From IMG/VR virus record IMGVR_UViG_3300007236_000043, positions 1 through 27,443 of that record: a DNA stretch of 27,443 nucleotides. One strand, 5' to 3'. Both the position numbers and the translations under genes were made by a program. Below, piece after piece: positions 3,465 through 10,824 of this stretch (within the stretch, counting starts at the first letter, position 1; each line of letters starts with the position of its first letter). This DNA is from a virus. Under the pieces are notes generated by a model. It ran no database searches. It saw only the letters and a list, made by a program, of their open reading frames with translations, and had not been told where the DNA came from.

Positions 3465-4088
3465 ATGGCTCACCCTCTAATTCATATTTCTAAAATGACT
3501 GGTAAGCTGGACGGGTTCCAGGCTATCAGCACTAACACCATGACAAACGAGTATTGCATTAAGCAAAACGCAAGTGGCAAGGCTGACAACATTTGCACCA
3601 AGTGTTACAGTCACACAATGCTAAAGTCATACCGAAAGAATATGCAACCGGCATTGCAGCGTAACAGTGAAGCCTTGGCTAATAAAGTGCATGATATGGA
3701 TTACCTTCCGTCAATCAATCAGGCTTGGTTTAGGTTCAATGCTCATGGTGAATTGATTAACCTAACTCACCTAGAAAACCTAAACAGAATAGCAAGGAAG
3801 AACCCCCACTGTTCCTTTGCTCTTTGGACTAAACGGAATGATTTGGTGTCAAAATACTACAAGACAAGGGAAAAACCTAGCAACATGATCTTGATCTACT
3901 CTAACTCTAAGGTGTCAACTATTATGAGCAAGCCACCAAAGCACTTTGACAGAACATTTAATAATGTTTTAGAGCATGAGCATGTTGACAAACAGAATTG
4001 CACTGGTCAAAAATGTAAAGACTGCCGCCTATGTTATACTATAGGCAACCAAGTAACCACCATTGTGGAGATGGTAAAGAAATACTAA
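3465..4088 (+). CDS. Cysteine-cluster protein resembling the phage Gp88 family
   Basis: First gene of the early operon, 207 aa. The N-terminal third has NICTKCYSHTML (Cys-x2-Cys) followed by SYR...LQRNSEAL. The C-terminus has CTGQKCKDCRLCY, that is C-x4-C-x2-C-x2-C. This arrangement, an N-terminal C..CY pair and a terminal Cys cluster, resembles the phage family called gene product 88, whose biochemical role I do not know. The clusters probably bind zinc or an iron-sulfur centre. The ribosome site AAGGA is 9 nt before the ATG. As the first early product it could be a host-takeover factor (inference). Confidence 0.6.
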   Translation: MAHPLIHISKMTGKLDGFQAISTNTMTNEYCIKQNASGKADNICTKCYSHTMLKSYRKNMQPALQRNSEALANKVHDMDYLPSINQAWFRFNAHGELINLTHLENLNRIARKNPHCSFALWTKRNDLVSKYYKTREKPSNMILIYSNSKVSTIMSKPPKHFDRTFNNVLEHEHVDKQNCTGQKCKDCRLCYTIGNQVTTIVEMVKKY

Positions 4089-4102
4089 AGGAGAAACTAA
4101 AG

Positions 4103-4327
4103 ATGTTCTATTGTATAGCAACCAAAGCCCTCAAGGATGGCACTCAAGGATTCCGCTTCAATGTGTGTGGCGTCAAAGGATTAACTCGCAAGAGGTTATT
4201 CAAGCGCCGCTGGGGCATAGCCAAAGGCAAGTCAATGGTGTCATTGCATATTGGTAAGCGTTCTGTTTATATTGAACGGAAGACAAACAAGACCAAAGGT
4301 AAAAGGATCAGGCATTTTGCAGGATGA
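4103..4327 (+). CDS. Small basic hypothetical protein (74 aa)
   Basis: Start ATG 4103 was chosen over an upstream in-frame start inside the preceding gene because AAAGGAG precedes it by about 9 nt. The product is strongly basic (RKRLFKRRWG and ERKTNKTKGKRIRH), with no membrane segment or recognised domain. It could bind nucleic acid. It belongs to the early small-gene set. Confidence 0.65.
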   Translation: MFYCIATKALKDGTQGFRFNVCGVKGLTRKRLFKRRWGIAKGKSMVSLHIGKRSVYIERKTNKTKGKRIRHFAG

Positions 4328-4457
4328 ATTACCTAAGTATCTCGAGAGAGAATTGGATCTGCTGGGTGTTGTGTCTCAACGCATGACACCTAGGCAACCA
4401 CAAGAGAAACAAGAGCCACCTCAAGTATGGGATGGCAAAGGGGATTGTCCCTTTTAA
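4317..4457 (+). CDS. Small hypothetical protein with a TTG start (46 aa)
   Basis: The frame is open from TTG 4251, but TTG 4317 is preceded by AAAAGGA at 9 nt and avoids a long overlap with the previous gene, so it is the likelier start. The product is charged, with a Pro/Gln-rich tail ending VWDGKGDCPF. No family recognised. Its position between two well-supported early genes supports expression, but the start codon is uncertain. Confidence 0.4.
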   Translation: MQDELPKYLERELDLLGVVSQRMTPRQPQEKQEPPQVWDGKGDCPF

Positions 4458-4473
4458 ATTAGGAGAAACTAAT

Positions 4474-4644
4474 ATGCTAGTGCAAGTTATTACCCTGAAT
4501 ATTTCCGATGGGGGTCAAACCACATATGTTGACATAGTAGGCACAGAGGATGCCGCAGAGAGTTATTTCATTTTGGATTTCCACAGAGAAGGGGGTGGGA
4601 ATGGGACATTGAGAGTGTGCAAACTAGTGGAGGTAAGCCAATGA
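4474..4644 (+). CDS. Small hypothetical early protein (56 aa)
   Basis: ATG 4474 follows TTAGGAGAAACTAAT, a strong ribosome site, and is preferred to the in-frame upstream ATG at 4432. The product starts MLVQVITLNISDGGQTTYVD, looks like a small beta-rich soluble domain and ends CKLVEVSQ. Its stop overlaps the next ATG as ATGA, so translation is probably coupled. No recognised family. Confidence 0.6.
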   Translation: MLVQVITLNISDGGQTTYVDIVGTEDAAESYFILDFHREGGGNGTLRVCKLVEVSQ

Positions 4645-4976
4645 TCTATGCAATCGCAGACGTACCACACGCAGATTATGACAATTATGACATGCTTAAT
4701 AAGCTCTTTCACGCATTGTCACCGCTTGGCTGGGAGCATAGCTCGTGGAAGAATGACACATGCCCATCACTCCACTTTGATGACATGAAAGAGGAACGGC
4801 ATGGCAACACCTGCCAGATATTCGTGGACTATGCAGACCCCGCCATGCGAGAGGATCCAGAGTGGCCTGTGCTGTCATTCAACTGCTATGACGCAGAGGG
4901 AATGCTGACACTCCAGAATGATTTTGACAATGTGGACAAGCTCCTAATCTATCTAACAGGGAAGGTGACACAATGA
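4641..4976 (+). CDS. Hypothetical early protein (111 aa)
   Basis: ATG 4641 is preceded by GGAGG. The product is acidic and soluble and starts MIYAIADVPHADYDNYDML. A central segment has WEHSSWKNDTCPSLHFDDM, and the end is hydrophobic-alternating (NVDKLLIYLTGKVTQ). Four Cys residues are scattered and form no clear metal motif. It overlaps both neighbours by ATGA. Function unknown; a small early protein of this kind often targets host processes, but nothing here identifies a target. Confidence 0.65.
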   Translation: MIYAIADVPHADYDNYDMLNKLFHALSPLGWEHSSWKNDTCPSLHFDDMKEERHGNTCQIFVDYADPAMREDPEWPVLSFNCYDAEGMLTLQNDFDNVDKLLIYLTGKVTQ

Positions 4977-5272
4977 CAAGGACAAGGGCAAGACAGTTAG
5001 AGGTTGTAAGGGTAGCAAGGGCCAAGGCATTTGTTGACAACTACAAGATGAACCAAGGCTGCAATAGGTGTGGCTTTGCCGAACATCCTGTAGCACTACA
5101 AATGAACCACATAGATCCCAGCACTAAGTTCAAGAATGTCTCTGAGTTAGTGAAGAAAGGTGTCATTGATACAATCAAGACGGAGCTGTCAAAGTGTGAG
5201 GTTCTTTGTGCTAACTGTCACGCTGTCCACACATATGCAAACCAACATCACAGAGAGGAGTTAGGCTCATGA
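4973..5272 (+). CDS. Small HNH endonuclease-like protein (99 aa)
   Basis: An HNH (beta-beta-alpha metal) fold is suggested by CNRCG (C30, C33), ALQMNHIDP (N45, H46) and CEVLCANCHAVHT (C79, C82, H83, H86): two Cys pairs that bind zinc around the His-Asn-His nuclease core. HNH proteins cut DNA using a divalent metal. At 99 aa it is near the minimum for the domain and has no added DNA-binding module, so it may be a free-standing homing endonuclease or a nuclease used in host DNA breakdown. It overlaps both neighbours by ATGA, unlike an unadapted insertion. Confidence 0.8.
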   Translation: MTRTRARQLEVVRVARAKAFVDNYKMNQGCNRCGFAEHPVALQMNHIDPSTKFKNVSELVKKGVIDTIKTELSKCEVLCANCHAVHTYANQHHREELGS

Positions 5273-5896: not shown

Positions 5897-7515
5897 ATTG
5901 GAAATCACATAAGCCTTGTCCCTACGAGGATTGCGGTAGCACAGATGCCTTTAGCTATAACCTGGACAGCATGTCAGGTAGGTGTCACAGCTGTGAACGT
6001 AAGTACCCAAGGGACAAGGCAGCAAAGCTAGACTGGGCAGAGGAAGAGTATCCTACTCAGGGACAGCAGCAACAAGAGAAGGATGATTGGGACATGGAGC
6101 CAGCGATCAAGGCAGTGCCTACCGAGGTACTCACAGGCGTATACCGAACCATACGTAGCATCTCAGACCAGACCATGCGAAAGTATGACTGTAAGACATA
6201 CCTAGACAAGGATGGCAAAGAGGTTAAGCAAGAATACATCTACCCTTCTGGTGGTGTTAAGACACGTTACTTCCCAAAGGAGTTCCGTGCAGTTAACCTC
6301 AAGTCAGACGAGCTATACGGTATGAACCTCTGGAACGCAGGGTCAGGTAAGATTGTGACCATATGCGAGGGTGAGCTAGACGCCATGTCTGCCTATCAGA
6401 TGTGTCATAACCCTAAGTTCTCCTCTGCCTTTGTGTCACTGCCATCGGCAACACCATCGAAGAAGCTATGGACAAACACAAACGATTGGCTGTCATCCTT
6501 TGACAAGATCATTCTGTCTATCGAGCATGATGACCAAGGCAATGCCGTGGCCCAGCGCATAGCTAACCTATACCCCAATAAGGTATACCGTGTGCAGCAT
6601 GACAAGTACAAGGATGCCAATGAGTTCCTTGAGGCAGGTGCAAAGAATGAATACTATAACGCCTGGATGAATGCCCGTAAGTATACCCCAGAGAATGTCA
6701 TCAACACCACTGACCAGTTCCTTAGCCTCTACAACAAGGCAGAGAACCACACCTATGTTGAGACAGGCATACAAGACTTCGATGATATGTGCCTAGGCCT
6801 GATGCAAGGACACTTCACCCTGTTCAAGGCCCAGACAGGCATAGGTAAGACAGAGTTTATGCGCTACTTGGAGTATCGTATTCTGGCTAAGAACCCTGAC
6901 ATCAAGATCGCCACATGGCACATGGAGGAGACTAAGCTACGATCCTTGTTGGGTCTGGTGTCATACGACATCAAGGATAACGTGACCCGCATGGACTTGA
7001 TCGAGGACAAGGGTGTCAGTGCCAAGGTACAAGAGTCAATCAGCAACATAACCAAGGACGAGAGACTATTCCAGTTCTTCTTGAATGACGAGGACGATCC
7101 CCTTGACCTGCTCGGGCACATACGTTATCTATCCCAGGCTTGTGATGTTAACTATATCTTCTTCGAGCCTATCCAAGACATCGCAGCTAACATGGGCGGT
7201 GACGAGAGCAAAGAGCAATTCCTTGCGGATCTATCTGTCAGGCTATCTAAGTTAGCCGCTGAGTTGAACGTAGGTATCGTGACCATCGGGCACACTAATG
7301 ATGACGGTCAGGTTAAGTACTGCCGTATGATAGAACAACGAGCATCTGTTGTTGTTGATCTACAACGCAACAAGATGGCTGAGGACGAGGACGAAAGGAA
7401 CACAACCAAGTTACTTGTCACAAAGAACAGACCAGTGGGTCCAACAGGGTACGCAGGACAACTTAAGTTTAACACTAACACCTTTACATTGGAAGAAAAG
7501 TATGCCTTCATTTGA
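5893..7515 (+). CDS. Bifunctional DNA primase-helicase (T7 gp4-like)
   Basis: A 540-aa replicative primase and 5'-3' helicase. Domain order: zinc ribbon with C9, C14, C31 and C34, which reads the priming site; toprim-like primase with EGELDA at 159-164 and EHDDQG at 211-216; DnaB-type RecA helicase with the Walker A AQTGIGKT at 313-320, the Walker B region YIFFEPIQD near 421-429 and the GIVTIGHTND segment near 461-470. The length is close to T7 gp4 (566 aa). Two acidic sites carry Glu where Asp is usual: the first residue of toprim DxDxxG (E211) and Walker B (E425). ATG 5893 overlaps the previous stop, which decides it over a TTG at 5878. It works with the split polymerase and the SSB downstream. 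Confidence 0.95.
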   Translation: MNWKSHKPCPYEDCGSTDAFSYNLDSMSGRCHSCERKYPRDKAAKLDWAEEEYPTQGQQQQEKDDWDMEPAIKAVPTEVLTGVYRTIRSISDQTMRKYDCKTYLDKDGKEVKQEYIYPSGGVKTRYFPKEFRAVNLKSDELYGMNLWNAGSGKIVTICEGELDAMSAYQMCHNPKFSSAFVSLPSATPSKKLWTNTNDWLSSFDKIILSIEHDDQGNAVAQRIANLYPNKVYRVQHDKYKDANEFLEAGAKNEYYNAWMNARKYTPENVINTTDQFLSLYNKAENHTYVETGIQDFDDMCLGLMQGHFTLFKAQTGIGKTEFMRYLEYRILAKNPDIKIATWHMEETKLRSLLGLVSYDIKDNVTRMDLIEDKGVSAKVQESISNITKDERLFQFFLNDEDDPLDLLGHIRYLSQACDVNYIFFEPIQDIAANMGGDESKEQFLADLSVRLSKLAAELNVGIVTIGHTNDDGQVKYCRMIEQRASVVVDLQRNKMAEDEDERNTTKLLVTKNRPVGPTGYAGQLKFNTNTFTLEEKYAFI

Positions 7516-7732
7516 TGACCTGACAAACATGACAACAGTAGCAGCAGCCCTCTACTTCCTTGGGGTCTACTTCCACTACGTCCATGTCAAAACTATCTTT
7601 CACCTCCTCGATAGATACGAGGACTTAAACAAAACTAAAGCTATCTTCCACAGTGTAACGTGGCCTATCACAGTGCTAGTACTTATGTGGGATGAGTTCT
7701 TTGGAGCAGAAGAGGACGAAGACTTAGAATGA
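7502..7732 (+). CDS. Small two-pass membrane protein (76 aa)
   Basis: ATG 7502 has GGAAG at good spacing inside the primase 3' end, and the gene overlaps the primase by 14 nt and the polymerase by ATGA. There are two hydrophobic segments, about residues 11-28 (TTVAAALYFLGVYFHYV) and about 50-65 (VTWPITVLVLMW), and an acidic tail EEDEDLE. The likely inner-membrane location between primase and polymerase genes might tether replication or act on the host envelope; neither is shown. Confidence 0.65.
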   Translation: MPSFDDLTNMTTVAAALYFLGVYFHYVHVKTIFHLLDRYEDLNKTKAIFHSVTWPITVLVLMWDEFFGAEEDEDLE

Positions 7733-8637
7733 AAACCGTAGCAATGGACATAGAGACAGACGACATTGATGCCACACGCATCTGGGTTATCTGTGCCAAG
7801 GACATAGACACAGGGGAAACAGAACAATTCCTTAATGTGTCACACATAGAAGAGGAGAAACAAAGGTTCATAGAGTACTGCGCTGATGTTGAAACATTTG
7901 TATTTCACAACGGCATTGCCTTCGATGTCCCAGTAATTAACAGGTTGCTTGGTGAAACTGTTGTTGACTTACACAAAGTACTTGACACCCTGATTGTGTC
8001 ACGCCTAGTGGACTACACTTTGGATGGCAAAGGACATAGCCTCAAGGCATGGGGGCGTAGACTAGGTGACCATAAGCTAGACTTCAAGGACTTCTCAGCC
8101 CTAACAGAAGAGATGATCTTCTACTGTCATCAGGATGTTACTGTGACGGTGCTGCTCTACAATACACTTAAGCCTGTCATCAATGACCCTACGTGGGATG
8201 AGGCTATCAGGTGTGAGCATGAGATCCAGATGCTATGTGAAGAGATGACAGACAATGGCTTCTACTTCGATCAGAACCAAGCAGAGACATTGCTTGATGA
8301 GATAGAGTTAAGGATGCTAGAGCTAACCGATGCCTTCCAAGAGGACTTCCCTCCCCAACTACAAGAGGTAAACCGTATAAAGTATAGGCGTAAGGCTGAT
8401 GGTTCTCTTTTCTCTAACGTAACCAAGGCACACGAGCAGTACGAGAAGACAGTAGTAGACTGGGCAGCTCAACCACCTGAGCTAGTCTGCTATGACTACA
8501 TAGAGTTTAATCCTGCCTCCCCTAAGATGCGTATAGAAAGACTTTGGGAAGCAGGGTGGACACCATATGAGAAAACGAAAGGACACATACAGTATGAAAG
8601 GGATGCAACTAGAACTGTTTGGTCATCAAGAAAGTAA
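7729..8637 (+). CDS. DNA polymerase family A, N-terminal piece (3'-5' exonuclease and start of thumb)
   Basis: The exonuclease motifs are complete: Exo I DIET (D7, E9), Exo II FHNGIAFD (N61, D66) and Exo III YCHQD (Y132, D136). The thumb region runs through FNPASPKMRIERLWEAGW, then stops at 302 aa before any polymerase motif. The remaining polymerase lies at 9198-10223 in a different frame, with an HNH gene between. Homology appears to end at about D292 (GAT 8602-8604); the last ten residues (ATRTVWSSRK) are read through from the insert. Proofreading should be retained, but activity requires assembly with the C-terminal piece. The start overlaps the preceding stop as ATGA. Confidence 0.92.
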   Translation: MKTVAMDIETDDIDATRIWVICAKDIDTGETEQFLNVSHIEEEKQRFIEYCADVETFVFHNGIAFDVPVINRLLGETVVDLHKVLDTLIVSRLVDYTLDGKGHSLKAWGRRLGDHKLDFKDFSALTEEMIFYCHQDVTVTVLLYNTLKPVINDPTWDEAIRCEHEIQMLCEEMTDNGFYFDQNQAETLLDEIELRMLELTDAFQEDFPPQLQEVNRIKYRRKADGSLFSNVTKAHEQYEKTVVDWAAQPPELVCYDYIEFNPASPKMRIERLWEAGWTPYEKTKGHIQYERDATRTVWSSRK

Positions 8638-9226
8638 GTCTTGCTCTAAGTGTGGTGAGGTTAAGCCTCTTGATTATTTCAGTAAAAATAGGTCAAAAAG
8701 GGATGGTCATCAAACAGAATGTAAAGTTTGTAATAAAGCTTACTGTCAAGATAACAAGGAAGCTATGGCAGATTATAACAAAGCTTACCGAAAAGCTAAC
8801 AAGGAAGCTATAGCAGATTATCGCAAAGCTTACCGAAAAGCTAACAAGGAAGCTAACAGGGAAGCTAACAGGGAATACTTCAAAGAATACTATCAAACTA
8901 ATAGGGAATATTACAATGAAGCAAACGTTAAAAGAGTTGCACTAAAAAAATCTAACACACCTGAGTTCATACTTGATTGTGAGGTAGAAAAGAAGAGAAG
9001 GGTAGACACATACAAGCTACGTAGCCTAATGACAAAGGTGACAGGCATTCAGCATCACGTCGATCACATGTGGCCATTGTCTGACGGTGGTCCTCACTGG
9101 TCAGGTAACCTACAGGTGATACCAGCCACTGACAACCTATCTAAGAAGGCTAGTGTAGACCTTGAAATAAAGATAACGATACAAGAAGGATTAGAATATG
9201 CAAGACAATGCTATGAGAGGAGATAA
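8594..9226 (+). CDS. HNH homing endonuclease inserted in the DNA polymerase gene
   Basis: A 210-aa protein. ATG 8594 has AAAGGA about 10 nt upstream; an in-frame ATG at 8567 lies further inside the polymerase piece. N-terminal zinc finger: C17-x2-C20 and C43-x2-C46. The middle has a 15-residue repeat, then the HNH core HHVDHMWPLSDGGPHW (H154, H155, D157, H158) with N172. Such enzymes cut an unoccupied copy of their target gene so that repair copies them in. The ORF fills essentially the whole insert (8605-9224) and overlaps both polymerase pieces, so no separate intron core fits. It is in frame with neither piece, so it is not an intein. Its C-terminus (CYERR) is encoded by a sequence similar to the 5' junction. 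Confidence 0.92.
   Translation: MKGMQLELFGHQESKSCSKCGEVKPLDYFSKNRSKRDGHQTECKVCNKAYCQDNKEAMADYNKAYRKANKEAIADYRKAYRKANKEANREANREYFKEYYQTNREYYNEANVKRVALKKSNTPEFILDCEVEKKRRVDTYKLRSLMTKVTGIQHHVDHMWPLSDGGPHWSGNLQVIPATDNLSKKASVDLEIKITIQEGLEYARQCYERR
8753..8875 (+). repeat. 45-bp tandem repeat inside the HNH gene
   Basis: Two nearly identical 45-bp copies (8753-8797, 8798-8842) encode NKEA-M/I-ADY-N/R-KAYRKA. A third partial copy follows (8843 on), giving NKEANREANRE. The near-identity at DNA level suggests recent slippage expansion. The coded helix is rich in Lys, Ala and Tyr and probably lies along DNA between the zinc finger and the nuclease core. Confidence 0.85.
9186..9190 (+). promoter_or_regulatory. 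Shine-Dalgarno that starts the C-terminal polymerase piece
   Basis: AAGGA at 9186-9190, 7 nt before ATG 9198, lies inside the HNH coding sequence. Ideal spacing suggests the C-terminal polymerase is translated independently, not made by splicing. Confidence 0.7.
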
Positions 9227-10223
9227 GTTTGCTAAGTACGGGTGGACACTATCCGAAGCAAACCTTAACACACTACCAGACTCAGCCCCTGAGGGAGGCA
9301 AGAGGTTAGCTGAGTGGTTGACTTTGGAGGGACGCAGAAGCTCCCTGGTGGAGTGGCTAGGCCACGTTAAGGACGATCACCGTATTCATGGTAGGTTTGC
9401 ACACATCGGTGCATGGACAGGACGTATGGCACACCGAGCACCTAACCAAGCCAACATCCCATCGGAGTTCCATGGCACACCTAAGTCTGCCGTTGAGGAG
9501 GTGAAGCACAGGTACGATGGTAGGTTCCGCAGCCTATGGACAACGCCTGATGGTTGTTTGTTGGTGGGTACTGACGCAGAAGGTATCCAGCTACGAGTAC
9601 TTGCGCACCTCATGAAGTCAGAAGAATATGTACACGCTATTGTGTCAGGCCGTAAGGAGAATGAGACAGACATCCACAACTTAAACCGCAAGGCCTTGGG
9701 TATGTCACACATCACGAGAGACATGGCTAAGACATTCATCTACGCCTTCCTGCTAGGAGCAGGTAACGAAAAGATCTCTCAGATCCTAAAGGTAAACCGT
9801 AAGGAAGCAACACAAGCAGTAGATAATTTCATGGAATCTATCCAAGGATTGTCTGAGCTGAAGAAGAAGATTATACCTTACGTTGCTGGACGTGGTTACT
9901 TCAAAGGTTTAGATGGGCGTAAGGTCAAGGTTCCCTCCGAGCACAAAGCCTTGGCTGGTATGCTACAGAATGGTGAGTCTGTCATCATGAAACATGCAGC
10001 CCTACAGTGGGTGCGTGAGGCAAAGCAGCAGAACCTAGACTTCAAGCTGGTCACCTGGCCTCACGATGAGTGGCAGACAGAGATCCGTGGTGGCATGGAA
10101 GAAGCAGAACAATTAGGTTCACTACAACGTCAATCTATTGTTGACACAGGAGTTAAATTCGGTATGATGTGTCCTCTAGCTGGGTCAACTGACATCGGTA
10201 AGAATTGGAAGGACACACACTAA
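9198..10223 (+). CDS. DNA polymerase family A, C-terminal piece (fingers, palm and rest of thumb)
   Basis: A 341-aa piece with all polymerase motifs: motif A GTDAEGIQLRVLAH (D126), motif B RDMAKTFIYAFLLG (R174, K178, Y182) and motif C WPHDEWQTE (H289, D290, E291). D126 and D290 should bind the catalytic metals. The residue equivalent to E. coli Pol I F762 and T7 Y526 is Tyr (Y182). The position of T7 Y530 is Leu (L186). Homology seems to start at about D9/K10; joined to the N-terminal piece at the shared GAT codon it would give a polymerase of about 624 aa. ATG 9198 has its own AAGGA. It overlaps the HNH gene by 29 nt. Confidence 0.93.
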   Translation: MQDNAMRGDKFAKYGWTLSEANLNTLPDSAPEGGKRLAEWLTLEGRRSSLVEWLGHVKDDHRIHGRFAHIGAWTGRMAHRAPNQANIPSEFHGTPKSAVEEVKHRYDGRFRSLWTTPDGCLLVGTDAEGIQLRVLAHLMKSEEYVHAIVSGRKENETDIHNLNRKALGMSHITRDMAKTFIYAFLLGAGNEKISQILKVNRKEATQAVDNFMESIQGLSELKKKIIPYVAGRGYFKGLDGRKVKVPSEHKALAGMLQNGESVIMKHAALQWVREAKQQNLDFKLVTWPHDEWQTEIRGGMEEAEQLGSLQRQSIVDTGVKFGMMCPLAGSTDIGKNWKDTH

Positions 10224-10318
10224 TGCTCCCTTATATTGTTGCCGGATCACCCATAATTTTTGTCTTGACAATGCAGGCAATAGTTTATATAGCTAACAAC
10301 AATACCAAACGCCAGTAA
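10223..10318 (+). CDS. Tiny single-pass membrane peptide (31 aa)
   Basis: A short frame coupled to the polymerase stop by TAATG. A hydrophobic stretch covers almost the whole N-terminal two thirds (MLPYIVAGSPIIFVLTMQ then AIVYIA), followed by a basic polar tail NNNTKRQ. GGAAGGA lies about 8-9 nt before the ATG. It resembles other phage micro-membrane proteins only in composition. It may be real, but it is short enough to be chance. Confidence 0.4.
   Translation: MLPYIVAGSPIIFVLTMQAIVYIANNNTKRQ
10265..10293 (+). promoter_or_regulatory. Possible internal promoter upstream of SSB
   Basis: TTGACA (10265-10270), a 17-bp spacer and TATAGC (10288-10293). The predicted start near 10300 would give a short leader before the SSB ATG at 10333, which also has its own AAAGGAG. 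A separate promoter would allow extra SSB synthesis. TTGACA is also a frequent coding string in this genome, so confidence is limited. Confidence 0.35.
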
Positions 10319-10332
10319 AAGGAGATACCTCA

Positions 10333-10824
10333 ATGGCAGCTAAGAAGAAAACTAAGTTCGGTGTATTCGAAGGTGAATTGTTTTATCCTCGTTTGTTCGA
10401 AGATACCATGGACACTTCTGAGTACCACGAACGTATACAAGGTCAGTACAGCACCATGTTCGTACCTAAGGACAGTGAAGAATTGAATCGTTTAATTGCG
10501 ATGGGATTCCCTGAGGTTTCCCTGGGTCACCAGATGGTCAAGCCTATCGCAATAGCTGATAACCGCATGGGTGTTAAACTTAAGCGTCCTAATGTACACC
10601 CTTCAGGTATTGAAGACTTTGGTGGTGCACCAACAGTTACTCATGGCGTGACCAACCAGAAGTGGGATAACATCGTTGATGGAAACTTAGGTCATGGCAC
10701 CAAGGCTAAGGTAAAGATCTCTATCTACGGTGAGGGTGAAAGAGCAGCGGTACGATTAGAGAAGGTTGGTGTTATCGAACACGTACCCTACCAAGAATTA
10801 GCTGAGGCTGAAGACCGCTGGTAG
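10333..10824 (+). CDS. Single-stranded DNA-binding protein (T7 gp2.5-like)
   Basis: A 163-aa protein placed directly after the polymerase. It has a basic N-terminus (MAAKKKTKFG), a beta-rich centre (GTKAKVKISIYGEGERAAVRLEKV) typical of an OB fold, and an acidic C-terminus ending EAEDRW. An acidic tail closing with an aromatic residue is the hallmark of T7 gp2.5, where it contacts polymerase and helicase. It would coat single strands during replication and recombination. The ribosome site AAAGGAG precedes the ATG. A weak hairpin follows the gene, so its mRNA may be partly separate. Confidence 0.7.
   Translation: MAAKKKTKFGVFEGELFYPRLFEDTMDTSEYHERIQGQYSTMFVPKDSEELNRLIAMGFPEVSLGHQMVKPIAIADNRMGVKLKRPNVHPSGIEDFGGAPTVTHGVTNQKWDNIVDGNLGHGTKAKVKISIYGEGERAAVRLEKVGVIEHVPYQELAEAEDRW

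Follow-up and report, generated by a model that had tools for sequence, protein, structure and literature searches.

The 27,443-nucleotide viral DNA analysed here (the window) very probably encodes a T7-like DNA polymerase of two subunits that is broken within the thumb, with a homing-type gene as a late arrival at the seam. In the arrangement we propose, the 3'-5' exonuclease would reside in the N-terminal protein together with the beginning of the thumb, and the palm and fingers in the C-terminal protein together with the remainder of the thumb. An entire clade of Cobavirinae phages has inherited this split; in these phages the polymerase gene normally stands in the +1 frame, overlaps the exonuclease gene by about 35 nt and starts inside its end behind an AAAGGA formed by the codons of a KG pair. 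An HNH homing-type gene would later have been inserted into that overlap, adding about 598 nt, taking over the start site of the polymerase and the stop codon of the exonuclease, and furnishing from its own 3' end a new ribosome-binding site and ATG for the polymerase piece. The HNH protein presumably mobilises itself by cutting empty junctions.

The polymerase locus

Three open reading frames in three different frames of the plus strand make up the locus, as the initial annotation, made from the letters of the DNA, had described: an exonuclease piece at 7729-8637 (302 aa), an HNH-type endonuclease gene at 8594-9226 (210 aa, with the frame open to a possible start at 8567) and a polymerase piece at 9198-10223 (341 aa). 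The middle gene overlaps both outer ones, which lie 560 nt apart in different frames and therefore do not form a single polypeptide. Pfam models score above their cut-offs on each outer frame, DNA_pol_A_exo1 on the first (E 2.7e-8) and DNA_pol_A on the last (E 2.3e-35). The exonuclease piece also matches PHROG 17/403, DNA polymerase exonuclease, while the polymerase piece, which contains motifs A, B and C, matches T7 gp5 (E 2e-29). These matches identify the locus as encoding a family A (T7 gp5-like) DNA polymerase, though not as a single-chain member of the family. The AAGGA earlier placed 7 nt before the C-terminal piece is indeed found at 9186-9190, within the 3' end of the HNH gene and ahead of the ATG at 9198, where it would serve as a ribosome-binding site for the polymerase piece. 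Motif B of that piece, RDMAKTFIYAFLLGAG, has Tyr at the position of T7 Y526 and Leu where T7 has Y530 (FLYGAG); the pattern is common to the fused relatives and so is a trait of the clade.

An assembly error was considered and is excluded, since the locus recurs in two further IMG/VR contigs at 99.96-99.97% identity. A search of a bacterial genome collection turned up no relative.

Indications that both pieces function

The initial annotation had suggested aligning both pieces to intact polymerases. In such a comparison, the residues invariant among 26 fused relatives are retained in the window at 34 of 34 positions on the exonuclease side and at 94 of 95 on the polymerase side. Neither piece has an internal stop, and across 115 exonuclease and 132 polymerase pieces the catalytic residues are intact except for one D7N. 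Between the window and its close relative CRP-5, dN/dS is 0.086 and 0.121 for the two pieces, values like those of fused genes; pairwise values in split genes run from about 0.04 to 0.2, again similar to fused genes. We looked for a second polymerase and found none: there is one PF00476 match per genome in ten split genomes, and no PolB in the three records searched (G000, CRP-5 and ICBM2).

By every sequence test, then, both pieces look functional, which bears out the earlier reading of a polymerase in two pieces. Conserved residues, purifying selection and a single polymerase together make it most likely that the two proteins work in trans, as had been proposed, and we infer that they assemble into one proofreading polymerase.

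Position of the break

We modeled a fused homologue, L127, with a pLDDT of 89.4; the model matches T7 polymerase with a Z score of 34.0 and an rmsd of 2.6 over 533 residues. The break corresponds to about residues 286-300 of L127, near helices 283-291 and 295-304. By the anchor LxEAGWxPxxxT..G it falls at about residue 360 of T7 gp5, and the same anchor aligns it to KKTPGGAP of E. coli Pol I, which we take to lie in the thumb. The break lies in a clade-specific extension of this thumb loop (KTKGH...YGW, against KKTPGGAP in E. coli Pol I). The initial annotation was right to place the break in the thumb, but some of the thumb belongs to the exonuclease piece as well.

The HNH gene and its seat

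The product of the middle frame matches PHROG 1035 (endonuclease; E 2.9e-25), and the Pfam HNH model reaches a sub-threshold 16.3 bits against a cut-off of 21.4. The HNH-type residues H154, H155, D157, H158, N172, N181 and K184 (HHVDHMWP...GN...N..K) are kept in 26 relatives. In an AF2 model of the protein the catalytic part mostly has pLDDT below 60, and the model was set aside as a fold-search query; the HNH alignment, run as a profile against the PDB, gave no match. Close relatives differ in the presence of the gene at this one site (present in the window, absent from contig L013 and CRP-5), and most other loci of the same HNH family lie away from the polymerase gene. G+C content is 0.39 in the insert, 0.46 in the exonuclease part and 0.49 in the polymerase part. 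On its sequence features and distribution, we classify the gene as a free-standing, homing-type gene.

Its boundaries coincide with former boundaries of the genes it separates. The start at 8594 lies 865 nt past the exonuclease start, and the ATG of the CRP-5 polymerase gene likewise lies 865 nt past the start of its exonuclease gene; the start chosen in the initial annotation is supported by this match to the polymerase start in empty relatives. An AAAGGA resembling a ribosome-binding site stands at 8578-8583, in the codons of KTKGH within the exonuclease gene; it would serve the HNH start here, as its counterpart would the polymerase start in empty relatives. The HNH gene stops at the TAA at 9224-9226, the same TAA that, within TAAGTTTGC, ends the CRP-5 exonuclease gene. 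At 633 nt, compared with about 598 nt added relative to CRP-5, the HNH frame spans the whole insert. It contains internal repeats at 8725-8855, with copies 45 bp apart and units like NKAYRKANKEA.

The HNH protein (8594-9226) begins MKGMQLELF, in which QLELF fits the bacterial beta-clamp-binding consensus, QL[SD]LF. About a dozen junction nucleases, drawn from two different families, share this N-terminal peptide, the codon differences among them at Q, L and F being mostly synonymous, and a variant, MKQLDLF, occurs in 5 of 35 relatives of the window's HNH protein that are located elsewhere. No such N-terminal peptide occurs among 29 CRP-5 proteins. The window has a second HNH endonuclease gene at 4973-5272, upstream of the primase (PHROG 2255, E 6.3e-25); CRP-5 gp07 is an HNH gene in a similar position.

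Split, fused and occupied forms among relatives

The same split, with the insert absent, occurs in the closest phages, the Roseobacter phage CRP-5 and the Lentibacter phage ICBM2 (Zobellviridae, Cobavirinae, Veravirus), as well as in dozens of marine contigs. CRP-5 is 91.7% identical to the window in DNA over 84% of the query. Its exonuclease and polymerase genes overlap by 35 nt, those of ICBM2 by 50 nt, and neither phage has a nuclease gene between them. CRP-4, CRP-9, P12053L and SIO1 have one continuous polymerase gene, and in T5S1-k141_653015 the exonuclease and polymerase pieces are separate genes with a primase-helicase gene between them.

We scanned IMG/VR with the polymerase pieces of the window, CRP-4, T5S1 and ICBM2 and joined duplicates. 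This gave 210 distinct loci, from contigs that are partly redundant and biased toward marine samples: in 94 the gene is split and the pieces overlap, in 78 it is fused, in 31 an insert lies at the split, and in 7 the pieces are far apart. In T5S1-like phages (L006, L151-L154 and L169) the pieces lie 1.5-3.2 kb apart, and the gap holds the primase-helicase gene and, in most, small ORFs of unknown function.

Five kinds of nuclease gene were found at the polymerase junction: the HNH type of the window (also in L244, L247 and L040), Endonuclease_7-like genes (for example in L063 and L074), a T5orf172/GIY-YIG gene (L047), an HNH+HTH_7 gene (L015 and L214) and an HNH_3 gene (L131). In most insert-bearing loci the old polymerase ATG is now the start of the nuclease gene, and the polymerase gene begins anew at or near the nuclease end. 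L244 has two nuclease-like genes stacked at the junction (3990-4992), the second with a Recombinase-type domain.

The polymerase gene is in the +1 frame in all 32 split-overlap representatives. In each of the 94 split-overlap loci a +1-frame ATG lies past the exonuclease tail and ahead of YGW, preceded in 85 by a Shine-Dalgarno-like site, and all 94 have AAAGGA or a close variant as the codons of the conserved KG. These signals suggest that translation of the two genes is coupled in the empty relatives. A +1 ATG in the same stretch also occurs in 30 of 70 fused genes, which means that starts of this kind were already there when the split arose.

Order of events

A tree of 74 representatives, built with the linker left out, contains a clade of 48 that is entirely split (support 100/99). 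The window adjoins L013, which is split, empty and 97% identical in protein. The state of the insert changes at least nine times (9-9 in bootstraps), a count of changes on the tree and not of their direction, with gain and loss of the insert not told apart. The fused or split state changes three times, and the best tree has the split arising more than once; with L131 set aside, an AU test does not reject a single origin of the split (p 0.248).

The present HNH gene most likely invaded a polymerase gene that was already split. The ATG and TAA of the HNH gene are those of the former polymerase start and the former exonuclease stop, which points to entry into a gene already in two pieces; and because L013 and CRP-5, the nearest relatives, are already split and empty, the insertion in the window was probably not the cause of the split. 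The original split of the clade may have come from an older nuclease insertion or from a small frameshift.

One contig differs. In L131 an HNH_3 gene (2060-2653) splits the polymerase and has replaced part of the linker, and the closest relatives of L131 are all fused. Loci newly classified around it comprise 37 fused and 29 split, the split ones resembling the clade of the window (73-85% identity) and having no insert. L131 is possibly a snapshot of splitting by a homing gene. Both orders of events thus appear to occur in the family, the nuclease-first order on the evidence of this one contig.

Alternative explanations

The initial annotation had the HNH gene itself split the polymerase, after the manner of mobE and nrdA in phage Aeh1. 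In its fullest form, this alternative holds that the HNH gene or an ancestor broke a continuous polymerase gene, and that the empty split relatives arose by later loss of the nuclease, leaving the polymerase under the nuclease's start codon. The start and frame of the polymerase in those empty relatives are the same as those of the nuclease genes, as expected of such a relic, and L131 offers a nuclease gene that interrupts the polymerase from a comparable start site within the exonuclease tail, its examined relatives in that clade being fused. However, the empty form is widespread in the main split clade, every sampled member of which is split, and the relatives nearest to the window, L013 and CRP-5, are already split and empty. 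The split without an HNH gene in those relatives, and the position of the HNH gene in an overlap of pre-existing genes, tell against the claim that this gene made the break; the Aeh1 model is not supported for the window, where empty relatives are also split, and fits L131. We regard this alternative as possible, though somewhat doubtful, and prefer insertion of the HNH gene into a polymerase already split.

Group I introns that contain HNH genes are frequent in phage polymerase genes, and a group I (or II) intron, or a split intein, might rejoin the pieces at the RNA or protein level. An intron has been raised as a possibility for OM43 phages (PMC10580990). Rfam searches found no family at E<=1 in the window from 7500 to 10500, and none at the gathering score in 14 insert-bearing loci; we reject an intron on these results. 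The HNH frame, moreover, covers the whole insert, in agreement with the earlier remark that there is no spare length for a group I core, and in the empty relatives, whose two genes overlap, there is nothing to splice. For an intein, tails of about 17 aa or less beyond the homology leave no room for its halves. We judge rejoining of either kind very improbable. A split that is only apparent, with programmed +1 frameshifting making a fused polymerase in the empty relatives, would agree with the +1 relation, which is universal in the split-overlap loci examined, yet is quite improbable. The codons that precede the exonuclease stop differ between loci (AGA, CGC, GGC, AGG, TAC and others) with no shared slippery site, which argues against a shared frameshift signal; the +1-frame ATG is present in every split-overlap locus, mostly with its Shine-Dalgarno-like site; and frameshifting cannot operate in the window, where the HNH gene intervenes, or across the gap of the T5S1-like phages. 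That the polymerase is decaying while the genome is copied by a host polymerase or a different phage polymerase seems improbable in the extreme. In its favor stands only the fact that the gene is broken; against it, both pieces are under strong purifying selection, almost every copy has its catalytic residues intact, there are no internal stops, and the productive isolates CRP-5 and ICBM2 are without another PolA or PolB. The initial annotation had itself raised another intact polymerase beside decaying pieces, and the same findings speak against this.

Comparison with known systems

Separation of polymerase and proofreading exonuclease into distinct subunits is familiar from alpha and epsilon of E. 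coli Pol III. That polymerase belongs to an unrelated family, and the break in the window passes through the thumb as well, so that both subunits are needed to make up a single domain. A closer likeness is gene 43 of the T4-like Aeromonas phages 25 and 44RR, split into 43A and 43B and encoding two polypeptides; a homing gene lies at the break in one relative and is absent in another, and the phage 25 pieces co-purify and are active (PMC2988022). There, as here, a replicative phage polymerase is made as two polypeptides and only some phages have a homing gene at the break, but gene 43 encodes a family B and the window a family A polymerase, and the break in 44RR is an untranslated spacer whereas the empty relatives of the window have a coding overlap. 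For phage 25 it was suggested that the gene may have been split before the homing gene entered it, the order being left open (PMC2988022); the many empty split relatives of the window point to the split coming first for its insertion. In Aeh1, insertion of mobE produced the split nrdA and a two-piece enzyme (PMC2988022). The window resembles it in having a free-standing HNH gene between two pieces of an essential gene, with no intron and a two-piece enzyme as the predicted product, but its split is most likely older than its HNH gene, and L131 is the closer parallel.

Within the same phage family, the OM43 phages MEP401 and MEP402 (Zobellviridae) have a family A polymerase in two genes, between which lies a small ORF with no known homology; the authors suggested an intron (PMC10580990). 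We considered whether the MEP401 split is the same event and rejected this, as the break is at another position (C-terminal piece of 236 aa, compared with 341 aa in the window). GenBank annotation gives ICBM2 separate "exonuclease domain" and "polymerase domain" genes and CRP-5 gp12 and gp13, split at the same place as the window with no nuclease gene; the two genome papers searched do not mention the split, and we found no paper describing the Veravirus/Cobavirus split among the openly licensed literature. Replacement of one nuclease class by another at the same phage site is already known (PMC10448857).

A wider reading, which we hold with about even confidence, is that a marine phage lineage has a two-subunit, thumb-broken family A polymerase, with the genes no longer adjacent in one related branch, and that the seam of the overlapping genes is a landing site where unrelated homing nucleases arrive and are lost again, each taking the polymerase start codon and supplying a new one, and possibly recruited through the clamp-binding-like QLELF. 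It is a common view that essential phage genes are split by homing nuclease genes, yet for the best-known polymerase case, gene 43 of T4-like phages, the order of events was not settled. In the present family, close relatives include fused, split-empty, split-occupied and unlinked forms of one polymerase, which allows that order to be read: the split most likely preceded the insertion in the window, whereas L131 points to the opposite route. The two-subunit family A polymerase predicted here, naturally broken within the thumb, may also prove useful as a split polymerase.
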